Assembly (NCBI GenBank): GCA_934456315.1
Contig: CAKSHG010000046.1
Span: 1 to 12,122, forward strand
DNA from: an uncultured Oscillospiraceae bacterium
Lineage (GTDB): Bacteria; Bacillota; Clostridia; Oscillospirales; Ruminococcaceae
Reading direction: 5' to 3'
DNA length: 12,122 bases
Shown here: in pieces, positions 8,750 through 12,122 of the stretch
Layout of the letters: each line of letters opens with the position of its first letter
Numbering within the stretch: the first letter of the stretch is position 1
Notes under the pieces: generated by a model
What the model saw: the letters and a program-made list of their open reading frames with translations, nothing else
What the model was told of the DNA's origin: nothing
The model's database searches: none
Translations under genes and position numbers: made by a program

Positions 8750-8951
8750 TACCGCTTTAAAAATATCGTGATTATTTGTTTATCCGACCCGCTCCTGAAC
8801 TGAACGGAGGCTTTTCATTGTGGGCGGACAGCAAGCCGCATGAGCAAAGGCTCATGCAGGGACGATCATATTTCTCAGGAACACTTTAAACACGACTGGT
8901 AGGGCATGCCGCACAGGGACTGTGCGTGCCGCCCTGAAATGGAGGGCTGTT
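8750..8951 (+). promoter_or_regulatory. Structured 5' leader of sigma-like gene
   Basis: About 200 bases between a consensus promoter and the gene. Three stems are visible. The first is TCCG-A-CCC (8783-8790) with GGGCGGA (8822-8828), enclosing CTCC/GGAG (8792-8795 with 8806-8809). The second is a perfect 8-base-pair hairpin GCATGAGC/GCTCATGC (8838-8845 with 8850-8857, loop AAAG). The third is CGCACAG/CTGTGCG (8910-8916 with 8920-8926, loop GGA) extended by AGGGC/GCCCT (8901-8905 with 8931-8935), ending six bases before the ribosome binding site. There is no T tract, so control would be at translation or message stability. I recognise no known riboswitch. Bases 8614-8749 hold only the terminator and promoter. 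Confidence 0.55.
8818..8889 (+). CDS. Possible 23-residue upstream leader peptide
   Basis: A TTG at 8818 lies seven bases after CGGAGG (8805-8810) and opens a 23-codon frame ending with TAA at 8887-8889. The peptide starts MWADSKPHEQRL and shows no run of one amino acid that would mark an attenuation peptide. The second leader hairpin (8838-8857) lies inside it. A good ribosome binding site is the main support; a non-ATG start and short length make it uncertain. Confidence 0.3.
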   Translation: MWADSKPHEQRLMQGRSYFSGTL

Positions 8952-9782
8952 ATGAGCAACATTAGCTTTGGCACCAGGACTATCCAGCAGTACATTAAGG
9001 AACTTGAGAGCTGCGATATATGCAGCGCCGCCGAGGCGTCATCGGCAGCTGCAACGGCGTCGCAGCGTGGACTGGACGCGCTGCCTGCTGAACAGCGCGA
9101 GAGATTCGTGAACTACTGCACGCTTGTCACCGCCAGGCGGGTGCGTGCTGTTACAGCAAAGATGTCTGCCGCGGCGGAGCTTGATCCCTGCGAATGGGTC
9201 AACGAATTCCACATCAGGCTTGAGGATACGCTCCGGCGATATGAGCCGGAGCGTTCAAGCCTGACGACTTTCCTGTCGAATTCGGTTGACAACTTCATGC
9301 GGAGCTATTCCGCGAACAACGACTCCCGCGGGCGCTACTACAACGCCACGGTGAGCCAGCTCCGCCGTGCCCGGGAGAAGCTCTCAAGGCAGAACAGCTG
9401 CGAGCCGACGGACGACGAGCTGATGAGCGAGCTGAAGTGGGGAATGCTCCGCCTCAGCAACGCCCGCAGAGCCGAGGCGGAGGGAGGCAGCGTTTCCCTT
9501 AGCGAGCCGGTGGACGCAGACGGAGAACTGACTATCGCGGACACGCTGGTTTCGGACGAGCCCAGCGTAGAGGAAGCCGCCGAGCAGAAGATAATGCTCG
9601 GCAGAATGCGCGAGTGTCTGGCGCAGCTCCCTGATGACAGGAGCAAGTACGCCACGATCAATTGCATAGCTCTTGGAAAGAGCTACGGCAAGGTCGGCGA
9701 GGAGCTCGGCGCCTCCAAGGAGGGCGTCAGGAAGATGGTCAACAGGACGCTTGACCTGCTGCGCACGATGCTGTGCGGCTGA
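8952..9782 (+). CDS. Divergent sigma-70-like protein
   Basis: 276 residues. ATG 8952 is chosen because GGAGGG (8941-8946) is five bases upstream; a GTG at 8922 lies inside a leader hairpin. The middle (about 55-160) resembles sigma region 2 into 3: a helix with LDPCEWVNEFHIRLEDTL, then RYEPERSSLTTFLSNSVDNFMRSY, which matches the pattern of the core-binding and -10-recognising part, then a PTDDELMSEL segment like region 3. A linker SLSEPVDADGELTIADTLVSDEP matches the typical bridge to region 4. The C-terminus (about 217-274) is a region-4-like helix-turn-helix: MRECLAQLPDDR, then YGKVGEELGASKEGVRKMVNRTLDLLR. The N-terminal 50 residues are Ala/Ser rich and unlike housekeeping sigma. It could be an alternative sigma factor or a sigma-derived DNA-binding regulator. 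It is alone in its transcript, with no anti-sigma gene nearby. The long structured leader suggests post-transcriptional control. Confidence 0.75.
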   Translation: MSNISFGTRTIQQYIKELESCDICSAAEASSAAATASQRGLDALPAEQRERFVNYCTLVTARRVRAVTAKMSAAAELDPCEWVNEFHIRLEDTLRRYEPERSSLTTFLSNSVDNFMRSYSANNDSRGRYYNATVSQLRRAREKLSRQNSCEPTDDELMSELKWGMLRLSNARRAEAEGGSVSLSEPVDADGELTIADTLVSDEPSVEEAAEQKIMLGRMRECLAQLPDDRSKYATINCIALGKSYGKVGEELGASKEGVRKMVNRTLDLLRTMLCG

Positions 9783-9794
9783 CGAAATACACCA

Positions 9795-9820
9795 AAGGGA
9801 CTGCGAAAACGCAGTCCCTT
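9795..9820. terminator. Hairpin between convergent genes
   Basis: A perfect 11-base-pair stem (9795-9805 with 9810-9820) with loop AAAA lies 12 bases after the sigma-like gene and 14 bases after the minus-strand small gene. T tracts on both sides are weak. Its position between two convergent stops suggests a shared, two-way terminator. Confidence 0.65.
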
Positions 9821-9834
9821 CAGTTATTTATCGC

Positions 9835-9996
9835 TCAAATCGCGTCCATGAGGGCTCCGAGCATGCGGAACACCTTTGCGGTGCTGCGGCGCTTCATGGT
9901 GTGGCGGCTTAGTGTGTTCACCGCCATGAATGCAAGACCTCCTGCAATCAGCCCGGCTGCGCTGCTCTTTATATAAGCTTCCGTCTTTCTGGACAT
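9835..9996 (-). CDS. 53-residue membrane-anchored small protein
   Basis: Read on the minus strand from ATG at 9996-9994 to TGA at 9837-9835. A clear AAGGAG (complement of 10006-10011) lies about nine bases before the start. The protein opens with MSRKTEAYIK, has one hydrophobic Gly/Ala-rich segment (about residues 11-28, SSAAGLIAGGLAFMAV) and ends in a basic tail (RHTMKRRSTAKVFRMLG...DAI). One membrane span with a charged tail is likely. The layout resembles short YtxH-like or Ruminococcaceae small membrane proteins, but I cannot assign a family. It converges with the sigma-like gene and shares the hairpin at 9795. Function is unknown. The upstream region shows no promoter I would defend. Confidence 0.75.
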   Translation of the reverse strand: MSRKTEAYIKSSAAGLIAGGLAFMAVNTLSRHTMKRRSTAKVFRMLGALMDAI

Positions 9997-10255
9997 AGTG
10001 ATCAGCTCCTTTTTGAAAGTTTACGTCAGTATTTTTTGCAATTTGCAGGTTTCTATTCAGAAACGCACTCTGATAAATCATTCCAGACGACCGGGAAATG
10101 TCCGGAAAAATGTGCTCCAATTGAAAAAAGTGCCTGTTTTCAGCCCTGTATTTGTGCTTTTTGTAATGTTTGCATATATAACGCTGCTGTTTTGACCCAA
10201 GTATCCGTCAATGTGCCAAAATGCAATTCCTGATATAAAAACTTGCAAAAACTGC
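9997..10255. other. Intergenic region with no assigned gene
   Basis: AT-richer DNA between the divergent small gene and the amt promoter. Apart from the small gene's ribosome binding site (10006-10011) I see no convincing gene, repeat or terminator. The promoter of the minus-strand gene should be here but no clear -35/-10 pair was found. Confidence 0.6.
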
Positions 10256-10284
10256 TTGACAAAATTCCTTGTTTGGTGTATAAT
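10256..10284 (+). promoter_or_regulatory. Perfect consensus SigA promoter of amt
   Basis: -35 TTGACA (10256-10261), a 17-base spacer and -10 TATAAT (10279-10284). The start is expected near 10291, right at the first leader hairpin. A consensus promoter on a nitrogen-scavenging transporter suggests that control acts after initiation. Confidence 0.92.
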
Positions 10285-10289
10285 CAGAC

Positions 10290-10354
10290 CATAGCAAAGG
10301 GGCTATGACAGACAGACTTCAATGGCGAAGCCTGCCGGTCATAGCCCCGCTTTG
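10290..10354 (+). promoter_or_regulatory. Dual hexaloop hairpin leader, candidate ANTAR antitermination site
   Basis: Hairpin P1 is CATAGC/GCTATG (10290-10295 with 10302-10307) with six-base loop AAAGGG. Five bases later, hairpin P2 is CAG-A-CTTC / GAAG-C-CTG (10313-10320 with 10327-10334) with six-base loop AATGGC. Both loops have A at position 1 and G at position 4, the rule for ANTAR-protein RNA targets. The 3' arm of P1 is also part of a competing long stem, GGGGCTATGAC (10299-10309) with GTCATAGCCCC (10338-10348), followed by GCTTTGTT. P1 and that stem cannot coexist. The T tail is weak for a terminator, and the predicted transcript start is so close that the outermost P1 pair may be lost. 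Confidence 0.6.
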
Positions 10355-10384
10355 TTAAAGCGACAAGCAATCACAAGTCAATAC

Positions 10385-10455: not shown

Positions 10456-12122
10456 ATGAACACACTATTGACTTTATTGTCCGAGGCTGGAACGGTATTC
10501 ACCCCGGATCAGAATGCAGCGATCCAGGCTGTCGTTGACGAAACGATGTACAGCGGCAGCGATGTAAACGGTATATGGTACCTCATAGGTGCCGCCTGGG
10601 TATTCTTCATGCAGTGCGGTTTCGCGATGGTCGAAACCGGTATGACCCGCTCGAAGAACGCTGGCAACATCATCATGAAGAACCTCATGGACTTCTGCAT
10701 AGGCACTGTAGTATTCATTCTTCTTGGCTTCGGACTCCTGCTCGGCGAGGACACCCTGTTCGGTCTGGTCGGTATCCCGAACCTTGATATCCTTGGCAGC
10801 TTCTCGGACTTCAACAGATGTGCCGAGTTCGTATTCAACCTTGTATTCTGCGCGACCGCCGCGACTATCGTTTCCGGTGCGATGGCAGAACGTACAAAGT
10901 TCCTTAGCTACTGCATCTACTCCGGCGTTATCAGCGCCATCGTTTACCCGATCGAGGCTCACTGGATCTGGGGCGGCGGCTGGCTGGCTCAGATGGGCTT
11001 CGTTGATTTCGCTGGTTCTACATGTATCCACATGGTCGGCGGTCTTTGCGCACTCATCGGTGCGAAGATGGTAGGTCCCCGTATCGGCAAGTTCGGCAAG
11101 GACGGCAAGCCTAACGCGATCCTCGGTCACTCCATGACCCTCGGCGCTCTCGGCGTATTCATTCTCTGGTTCGGTTGGTACGGATTCAACGGCGCTGCCG
11201 CTTCCGATACCCACTACCTTGCAAATATCTTCCTTACTACAACAGTAGCCCCCGCAGTGGCAACCTGCACAACCATGGTTTACACCTGGATAAGACACGG
11301 CAAGCCTGATGTTTCCATGTGCCTTAACGCTTCCCTTGCAGGTCTTGTAGCTATCACGGCTCCCTGCGCTGATACAGACTGCCTCGGCGCTGCTATCATC
11401 GGTCTGGTTTCCGGCTTCCTGGTTTGCTTCGGCGTTTGGCTCCTCGATTACAAGCTGCACATCGACGACCCGGTCGGCGCAGTTGCAGTACACTTCTTCA
11501 ACGGTATCTGGGGTACCATCGCAGTTGGTCTTTTCTCTAACGGCAACGGTCAGAACGGCGGCGTAGCTGCTGTAAACGGTACCGGCGAGCATGCTGTGGG
11601 TCTGTTCTACGGCGGCGGTTTCGCACAGCTTGGCGTACAGCTCCTCGGCATGGTTTCCGTACTTGCATGGACTGGCGTTACCATTACTATCACATTCCTT
11701 ATCATCAAGAAAACTGTCGGTCTTAGAGTTTCCCGCCACGAGGAGATCGTTGGTCTGGACGCTACGGAGCACGGTCTGCCTTCCTCCTATGCAGACTTCG
11801 TTCCTGCAATGCATGTAGAGCTTTCCACCTCCGGCAAGGAGAAGGAAGTAGAAACCGTAAAGCTCGGCTCTGCGCCTGTTGAGGCTGCCGTTCCTGTTGC
11901 GTACAAGAGCGCTAAGCCCTCTGACGGCACAAAGATGAGCAAGGTCGTTATCCTTGCAAAGCAGGAGAAGTTCGAAGCTCTCAAGCATGCGATGTCCGAG
12001 ATCGGCGTAACTGGTATGACAGTCACCAATGTACTTGGCTGCGGCATGCAGAAGGGCGCTACCGAGTTCTACCGCGGCGTTAAGGTCGAAACGACCCTCC
12101 TGCCTAAGATCAAGGTCGAGAT
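10456..12122 (+). CDS. amt: Ammonium transporter (Amt) fused to P-II domain (3' partial)
   Basis: 555 codons seen; it runs off the window. ATG 10456 follows AGGGG (10440-10444). Residues about 38-430 form the Amt/Rh channel, with about 11 membrane spans that conduct ammonium across the cell membrane. The channel twin histidines are His192 (CIHMVGG) and His346 (VHFFNGIWG). Other marks are VETGMTRSKNAGNI near the N-terminus and WFGWYGFNGAAA. An Ala/Lys/Val linker (about 435-493) leads to a P-II signal-protein domain from residue 494, with IGVTGMTVTNVLGCGMQKG and LPKIKVE. By position, Tyr46 (E. coli GlnB numbering) is kept (Tyr539), but the uridylylation site Tyr51 is Val544, Arg38 is Met and His42 is Ala; Lys58 is kept. 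The fused P-II may gate its own channel by ATP/ADP/2-oxoglutarate without uridylylation. Codon use is strongly biased, as in S1, implying high expression. Confidence 0.96.
   Translation, partial: MNTLLTLLSEAGTVFTPDQNAAIQAVVDETMYSGSDVNGIWYLIGAAWVFFMQCGFAMVETGMTRSKNAGNIIMKNLMDFCIGTVVFILLGFGLLLGEDTLFGLVGIPNLDILGSFSDFNRCAEFVFNLVFCATAATIVSGAMAERTKFLSYCIYSGVISAIVYPIEAHWIWGGGWLAQMGFVDFAGSTCIHMVGGLCALIGAKMVGPRIGKFGKDGKPNAILGHSMTLGALGVFILWFGWYGFNGAAASDTHYLANIFLTTTVAPAVATCTTMVYTWIRHGKPDVSMCLNASLAGLVAITAPCADTDCLGAAIIGLVSGFLVCFGVWLLDYKLHIDDPVGAVAVHFFNGIWGTIAVGLFSNGNGQNGGVAAVNGTGEHAVGLFYGGGFAQLGVQLLGMVSVLAWTGVTITITFLIIKKTVGLRVSRHEEIVGLDATEHGLPSSYADFVPAMHVELSTSGKEKEVETVKLGSAPVEAAVPVAYKSAKPSDGTKMSKVVILAKQEKFEALKHAMSEIGVTGMTVTNVLGCGMQKGATEFYRGVKVETTLLPKIKVE

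Follow-up and report, generated by a model that had tools for sequence, protein, structure and literature searches.

The window analysed here, that is, the whole stretch of 12,122 nucleotides, ends within the gene amt, whose product was identified as an ammonium transporter by PF00909 (E 1.2e-118) and TIGR00836 (over cut-off), in agreement with the initial annotation. A P-II domain (PF00543, E 5.8e-10) is located C-terminally in the same polypeptide as Amt (window positions 10456–12122). Upstream of amt, the following features were found on the basis of sequence, fold and comparison with relatives:

10222..10249, + strand: palindrome TGCAA-N16-TTGCAAA, 5′ of the −35 box; candidate operator or UP element (genus conservation)
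10256..10284, + strand: consensus promoter TTGACA-17-TATAAT (12/12 consensus matches)
10290..10307, + strand: P1, a hexaloop hairpin composed of 5′ arm CATAGC (10290–10295), loop AAAGGG (10296–10301) and 3′ arm GCTATG (10302–10307); proposed ANTAR site and antiterminator (sequence, fold, conservation)
10299..10309, + strand: 5′ arm of the terminator, GGGGCTATGAC, covering the P1 loop and 3′ arm (sequence, fold)
10313..10334, + strand: P2, a nested hexaloop hairpin that fits both states (fold, genus comparison); its core (10317–10330) is CTTC (10317–10320), loop AATGGC (10321–10326) and GAAG (10327–10330)
10338..10348, + strand: 3′ arm of the terminator, GTCATAGCCCC (sequence, fold)
10349..10356, + strand: weak U-rich tail, GCTTTGTT (sequence, fold)
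10456..12122, + strand: amt, ammonium transporter fused to a P-II domain, truncated by the window end (PF00909, PF00543, TIGR00836)

Farther upstream, a sigma-factor-like protein (8922–9782) with a Sigma70_r3 match below threshold precedes terminator-like sites that occur on both strands (9791–9824), and a possible divergent gene of 53 codons lies on the minus strand (9835–9996), with a ribosome-binding-like AAAAAGGAGCT seen by eye upstream of it.

The loops of P1 and P2 are both hexaloops with A at position 1 and G at position 4 (A1/G4), and both are closed by a C-G pair. Beyond an A-C mismatch, the P2 stem can be extended by CAG/CTG (10313–10315/10332–10334); the P1–P2 linker is 9 nt (10308–10316), or 5 nt when this extension forms. 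In the competing stem, GGGGCTATGAC (10299–10309) pairs with GTCATAGCCCC (10338–10348) over 11 bp, with P2 inside, and some bases of the tail are able to pair with the P1 region. The leader thus has two features of classical dual-hexaloop antitermination, neighbouring A1/G4 hexaloops and a linker within 5–12 nt, but its terminator does not exclude P2: it consumes the loop and 3′ arm of P1 while P2 stays folded. In the wider sense of an ANTAR attenuator, an A1/G4 hexaloop is mutually exclusive with an intrinsic terminator, whose T tail is weak in the window. All Rfam matches in the window were under the gathering score, and no family matched at the gathering threshold in nine related loci.

The 74-nt leader folded at −34 kcal/mol (z −5.89), and none of 200 shuffles was as good. 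The terminator stem gave −30.4 kcal/mol (z −5.6) and P1 alone −6.0 kcal/mol (z −5.3), that is to say, without help the terminator fold beats the P1 fold. When truncated 5′ of the terminator 3′ arm, the leader folded as P1 plus P2. P2 alone gave −5.2 kcal/mol; since its z was only −1.9, the P2 fold by itself is within chance in the window sequence, and it is the relatives that make P2 convincing.

The promoter ends five bases upstream of P1. Among 38 genus leaders picked by a promoter-like pattern (L158 is not among them), the −35 box is TTGACA in 37, the −10 box is TATAAT in 36 and the spacer is 17 in all. The palindrome lies at a constant spacing from the promoter in 35 of the 38, and its strict form occurs in exactly one copy in 29 of 43 genus genomes (28 at the amt match and one at the site of L231), compared with none for the reversed pattern. 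It is a candidate operator for a DNA-binding regulator, or an UP element; because it is conserved upstream of the −35 box, the amt promoter may be regulated as well. Of the proposal in the initial annotation that amt is controlled by antitermination after a constitutive consensus promoter, the perfect and conserved consensus stands and antitermination gains support from the ANTAR genes in relatives (below), while the word constitutive is doubtful.

The genus sample comprised 43 genomes (the genus of relative G002), 39 of which have an Amt match. The sister species (G100) is 88.5–89.7% identical to the window in DNA over the amt region and 100% identical at the Amt N-terminus. P1 follows the −10 box in 36 of 40 genus amt leaders (the 39 and the window), namely 33 by the main count, L192 and L193 with TATACT, and L145 with a three-pair stem; the other four amt copies (L194, L195, L196 and L198) have no P1. 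An extra site behind such a promoter was found at a contig end (L231), before apparently the same gene start. In another leader (L154, genome G110, which has no ANTAR match), the P1 loop is AGAGAG, altered at position 2 with A1 and G4 kept.

For P2, 36 of 37 genus leaders were folded (L231 included, the P1-bearing L156 missed, and the four copies lacking P1 left out); in L139, L146, L150 and L191 (energies of −5.8 to −18.4) the wrong 3′ arm was probably taken. A hexaloop caps the minimum-energy terminator in 18 of the 36. Sixteen of these 18 have A1 and G4, all C-G closed, against an expected 1 in 16; the binomial value of 7e-18 is overstated because the species are related. Loop positions other than 1 and 4 differ between leaders, as do the stems. 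No hexaloop caps the terminator in the remaining 18 folded leaders, and in L132, L140, L149 and L153 among them a P2-like sequence is present but folds with a tetraloop. Because A1/G4 hexaloops cap many different stems, P2 is a conserved second site in the genus; that P2 is a chance hairpin, a reading suggested by wide relatives without it, was rejected on these leaders. The initial annotation had regarded as odd that P2 stays folded inside the competing stem while only P1 is destroyed; this property is conserved in the genus and is the normal design. It had also called the T tail weak, which GCTTTGTT bears out: one to three bases intervene between the stem and the T run in the window, L131, L132, L192 and L193, and for this reason the tail is weaker in the window lineage.

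A wider set of 80 relatives was gathered by Amt protein, and 79 were used, the sequence upstream in L063 being too short. Our strict detector requires a hairpin with an AANGRN hexaloop and, downstream, a terminator stem that reuses the loop or arms of this hairpin. It found this unit of P1 and terminator in 46 of the 79 amt leaders; after dinucleotide shuffling, five sets of 79 leaders gave 0, 1, 0, 0 and 0. When a six-base loop of any sequence was allowed, 57 of 79 leaders were positive (overlapping registers counted); loops of the form A..G.. gave 48, compared with 0 to 4 when position 1 or position 4 held a different base. A looser detector gave 51 of 81 sequences, with poor cases among them (for example L041 and L072), and the strict detector is the one counted here. 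Outside the amt leaders, the strict detector had 56 matches (+ strand, 28 upstream and 8 downstream; − strand, 20), many of which by eye are the leader of a GSIII gene before amt, and some of which are chance-like.

Pairing was also assessed at sites chosen without regard to it. These C-AANGRN-G sites numbered 110 and came from 63 of 80 leaders, the window counted among them. Stem position 2 is paired at 98 of the sites, position 3 at 93 and position 4 at 88. All three are paired at 71 of the 110, compared with 84 of 813 sites elsewhere in the same loci, although the 813 contain some real units upstream of other genes. For 31 units selected for having both helices, the covariation scores were 0.738 for P1 (0.270 shuffled) and 0.714 for the terminator (0.283 shuffled). 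A covariance model, R1, scores terminator pairing and leaves P1 pairing unscored. Among 40 later R1 matches, 37 have the loop motif, and positions 2–4 are paired in 30 of these; permuted 3′ arms gave a mean of 13.3, and none of 2000 permutations matched the observed total. At L207 the unit lies upstream of a PurF-like gene, and at L226 and L312 no detector unit was found at the R1 match. The two A1/G4 hexaloop hairpins of the initial annotation are borne out by the sequence and by genus conservation with changing stems, the mutual exclusion of P1 and the 11-bp stem holds by sequence, alternative folds and covariation, and the compensatory stem changes it proposed to look for in related leaders were found in both the P1 and terminator helices.

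Forty-six leaders that have a C-G-closed unit (genus leaders L001–L003 included) were searched, each at its first unit, for a second hexaloop. No C-G-closed A1/G4 hexaloop was found inside the terminator in 44 of the 46, and none in the 45 nt upstream, where the promoter lies, in 45; one hexaloop stands alone in the tested unit in 43. The two-hairpin form, as far as these leader sequences go, is a minority in the wider clostridial set, and the single form is the rule outside the genus; that the two-hairpin form is a minority had been missed by the initial annotation. A −10-like box ends 2–14 nt 5′ of the hairpin in 38 of the 46, and hexamers with 5 or 6 of the 6 TATAAT letters number 39 at gaps of 2–14 and 13 at gaps of 16–54. 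A −10 box so close to the hairpin leaves little transcript space for an upstream P1. The 46 leaders hold 59 units, some leaders having tandem units. In L007, L011, L015, L049, L050, L052, L077 and L078, the starts of the tandem units before amt are 58–71 nt apart, and these are possibly two independent attenuators in series. No published description of single-hexaloop clostridial leaders was found among the open-access papers searched, the supplementary tables of Ramesh 2012 aside.

ANTAR regulators near nitrogen genes, which the initial annotation proposed to search for, occur in the relatives, often beside the genes for glutamate or glutamine synthase. ANTAR (PF03861) was found in 72 of the 79 searched genomes with a related amt (35/40 and 37/39) and in 38 of the 43 genus genomes, sister species G100 included, every one of these 38 having a single match, which in one case is a fragment. 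In the genus, the ANTAR gene follows a gene for a GXGXG-domain glutamate synthase in 13 of 29 motif-flagged loci (L161–L189), an antisense frame masking the gene in others; the same order occurs in L084 (Pfam) and L091. Among the other loci (L081–L130), a glutamine synthetase motif lies near the ANTAR gene in 9 of 50, with more by eye. In the glnA-glnR pair of Clostridium saccharobutylicum, an ANTAR regulator gene likewise adjoins that of glutamine synthetase. The phospho-acceptor column has Asp in only 4 of 79 aligned ANTAR proteins, so that most of them are pseudo-receivers, and the phospho-acceptor of a two-component, EutV-type regulator is missing from 75; Pfam found no receiver domain in the one ANTAR protein tested. 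The positions aligned with the EutV RNA-contact residues Lys149, Glu160 and Met172 are invariant in all 79, with the EutV chain shifted by two to fit the residues named in PMC8934654. The position of EutV Tyr164, which is described as stacking on loop G4 (PMC8934654), is His in 75 of 79, a difference from EutV that counts against the ANTAR reading; AmiR likewise has His there.

The unit co-occurs with ANTAR genes. In a class sample of 196 Clostridia, of which 99 had an ANTAR match above cut-off and 97 had none, R1 matched at E ≤ 1e-5 in 38 ANTAR-positive and 3 ANTAR-negative genomes, at 1e-6 in 22 and 0, and at 1e-3 in 66 and 21; one ANTAR-positive genome (G007) had supplied an R1 training sequence. 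In the other 61 ANTAR-positive genomes, no match at E ≤ 1e-5 was found among the 30 candidates scored per genome. ANTAR-less genomes with a match number 3 at 1e-5 (G131, G158 and G235), 8 at 1e-4 and 21 at 1e-3. Units without an ANTAR match in the genome were also seen in G001, G031 and G055 (amt leaders L001, L031 and L055), in G070 (elsewhere in L071) and in G110 (L154); incomplete assemblies could explain some of these genomes.

The genes downstream of R1 matches were inspected in three sets. (i) In 20 genomes, R1 gave 95 matches at E ≤ 0.05, and 30 of these were examined as loci, 27 from ANTAR-positive and three from ANTAR-less genomes. The 27 loci, several of which were R1 training sequences, precede amt (8), GSIII (4), GOGAT (2), CTP synthase (2), asparagine synthase (2), a PurF-like gene (1) and an NAD-synthetase-like gene (1); the other 7 comprise an aminotransferase, a periplasmic binding protein, a circularly permuted ATP-grasp, RelA/SpoT, an ABC ATPase and two loci at which no nitrogen gene is evident, with L212 (gene 658 nt away) and L215 (no gene) being weak. 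A detector unit is present at the R1 match in 21 of the 27 and absent in 6. The three ANTAR-less loci precede a LytR-family gene, a transposase-like fragment and phosphoglycerate kinase; the locus before the LytR-family gene (L216) has a detector unit, which counts against specificity, and L217 and L219 have none. (ii) Twenty class loci, mostly best matches plus three from ANTAR-less genomes (before amt, GSIII and AnfO), precede GSIII (9), amt (5), AnfO (1), a NifB-like radical SAM gene (1) and other or no genes (4). The site before the iron-only nitrogenase accessory gene AnfO (L256) belongs to G235, which has no ANTAR match, and that before the NifB-like gene (L273) to G212. (iii) Twenty genus loci precede GSIII (7), a circularly permuted ATP-grasp gene (9) or none (4). 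A nitrogen gene (amt, GSIII, GOGAT, glutamine amidotransferase or nitrogenase-related) lies downstream in 20 of the 27 loci and 16 of the 20 class loci, called by Pfam for 17/27 and 11/20 and otherwise by eye. The hexaloop–terminator units probably form a clostridial nitrogen regulon. The ATP-grasp gene (PF14403) lies downstream of sites in L303–L308, L313, L318 and L321 of the genus and in L212 of Butyrivibrio; the P1 stem is short in L307, L313 and L318, and the L212 gene is 658 nt off. These positions suggest that it has a place in nitrogen metabolism.

ANTAR control of amt has already been published as a prediction. Ramesh 2012 (PMC3369931) predicted ANTAR regulons, for example in Desulfotomaculum acetoxidans, upstream of genes for ammonium transporters, P-II, glutamine synthase and glutamate synthase. 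As described, that search was built on a two-hairpin model and looked for terminators that overlap P2, so that it does not cover units with a single hexaloop or with P1 in the overlap (PMC3369931). The eut leaders of Enterococcus faecalis, read by EutV/EutW, resemble the window in having A1/G4 hexaloops mutually exclusive with an intrinsic terminator, conserved closing pairs, an ANTAR protein (predicted here) and a short P1–P2 linker, which is 5–12 nt in the accounts cited (PMC3369931, PMC8934654). Three differences stand out: (i) in eut, it is P2 that overlaps the terminator, with P1 external to both, whereas in the window P1 overlaps and P2 is nested within the terminator; (ii) EutV has a phosphorylated receiver, whereas the phospho-acceptor Asp is kept in only 4 of the 79 aligned proteins here; and (iii) EutV needs two hairpins for antitermination, whereas most tested clostridial leaders show one (PMC3369931, PMC8934654). 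By analogy, the third of these counts against a one-hairpin mechanism. The NasR/nasF and AmiR/amiE systems share with the window a terminator leader RNA, A1/G4 loops and nitrogen genes, and AmiR has a non-phosphorylated pseudo-receiver, as most ANTAR proteins of the relatives do; by contrast, in these leaders the terminator overlap falls on P2, P1 lying outside, and the inputs are a NIT domain and AmiC (PMC3369936). Judged from the sequences compared, the architecture in the window departs from the published ANTAR model in that P1 and P2 have swapped roles, and it probably represents a variant form of ANTAR attenuation.

We consider, with a probability of about 0.8, that the window leader is an ANTAR-controlled transcription attenuator. 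It is quite unlikely that it works instead by classical dual-hexaloop antitermination that needs both P1 and P2, with the one-hairpin relatives having a differently formed second hairpin or pairing their tandem units. P2 is an A1/G4 hexaloop in 16 of the 36 folded genus leaders, the linker of 9 nt (or 5) is within the eut range, and with 59 units in 46 leaders some leaders do have two, all of which this reading would accommodate. Yet P2 in the window does not overlap the terminator, the wider leaders show no second A1/G4 hexaloop in the terminator (44/46) or in the 45 nt upstream (45/46), and a 20-nt linker extension abolished EutV antitermination (PMC8934654), which puts tandem units 58–71 nt apart beyond the allowed spacing. 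Another reading goes further than an attenuator: the single 5′-terminal hexaloop would be a complete clostridial ANTAR switch, and the terminated leader of the genus, which keeps P2, would act as an ANTAR decoy that damps the amt response. The aborted leader of about 65 nt (10290 to about 10356) would keep a bindable A1/G4 loop, in analogy with the EutX/Rli55 RNAs. We regard this combined proposal as speculative and rather unlikely.

That the alternative folds are real but are recognised by a different factor, not an ANTAR protein, or operate by folding kinetics alone, would fit the few genomes that have the unit but no detected ANTAR gene and the strong preference of folding alone for the terminator. 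We think it very improbable, given that the invariant A1/G4 loops are the published ANTAR signature, that the unit co-occurs with ANTAR genes and that no Rfam family reached the gathering threshold in nine such loci. Chance hairpins next to an ordinary terminator can be practically dismissed: P2 alone is only 1.9 sd better than shuffles and the T tail is weak, but the unit is present in 46 of 79 real leaders compared with 0 to 1 of 79 shuffled ones, and the helices covary.

For the ANTAR-controlled attenuator, we propose the following course of events. Transcription would start at or just before P1, as the position of the −10 box indicates, and P1 would be the first to fold as the RNA emerges. 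The 3′ arm at 10338–10348 would then invade P1, capturing its loop and 3′ arm and hiding its G4 side; the terminator would form, and polymerase would halt upstream of amt. Under nitrogen shortage, presumably, a pseudo-receiver ANTAR protein, as a dimer, would grip the P1 hexaloop and keep P1 closed, allowing read-through into amt; binding to P1 is predicted from the sequence comparison. The ANTAR gene adjoins glutamate synthase in the genus and often glutamine synthetase elsewhere; a partner would presumably sense nitrogen for the ANTAR protein. P2 would serve as a second site in both states, probably raising the local protein concentration or assisting a hand-over between hairpins. The unit without P2 would be the common clostridial form controlling the nitrogen regulon.

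Nitrogen sensing in gut and rumen bacteria of the Lachnospirales and Oscillospirales is poorly known. A pseudo-receiver ANTAR protein and a minimal RNA switch may govern GSIII, amt, GOGAT, CTP synthase, asparagine synthase and other genes. Walshe 2022 described one hexaloop as the minimal binding site, with two still required for antitermination, and left the role of single-hexaloop sites to be explored (PMC8934654). The natural single-hexaloop leaders and the inverted dual-hexaloop leaders reported here bear on that question.
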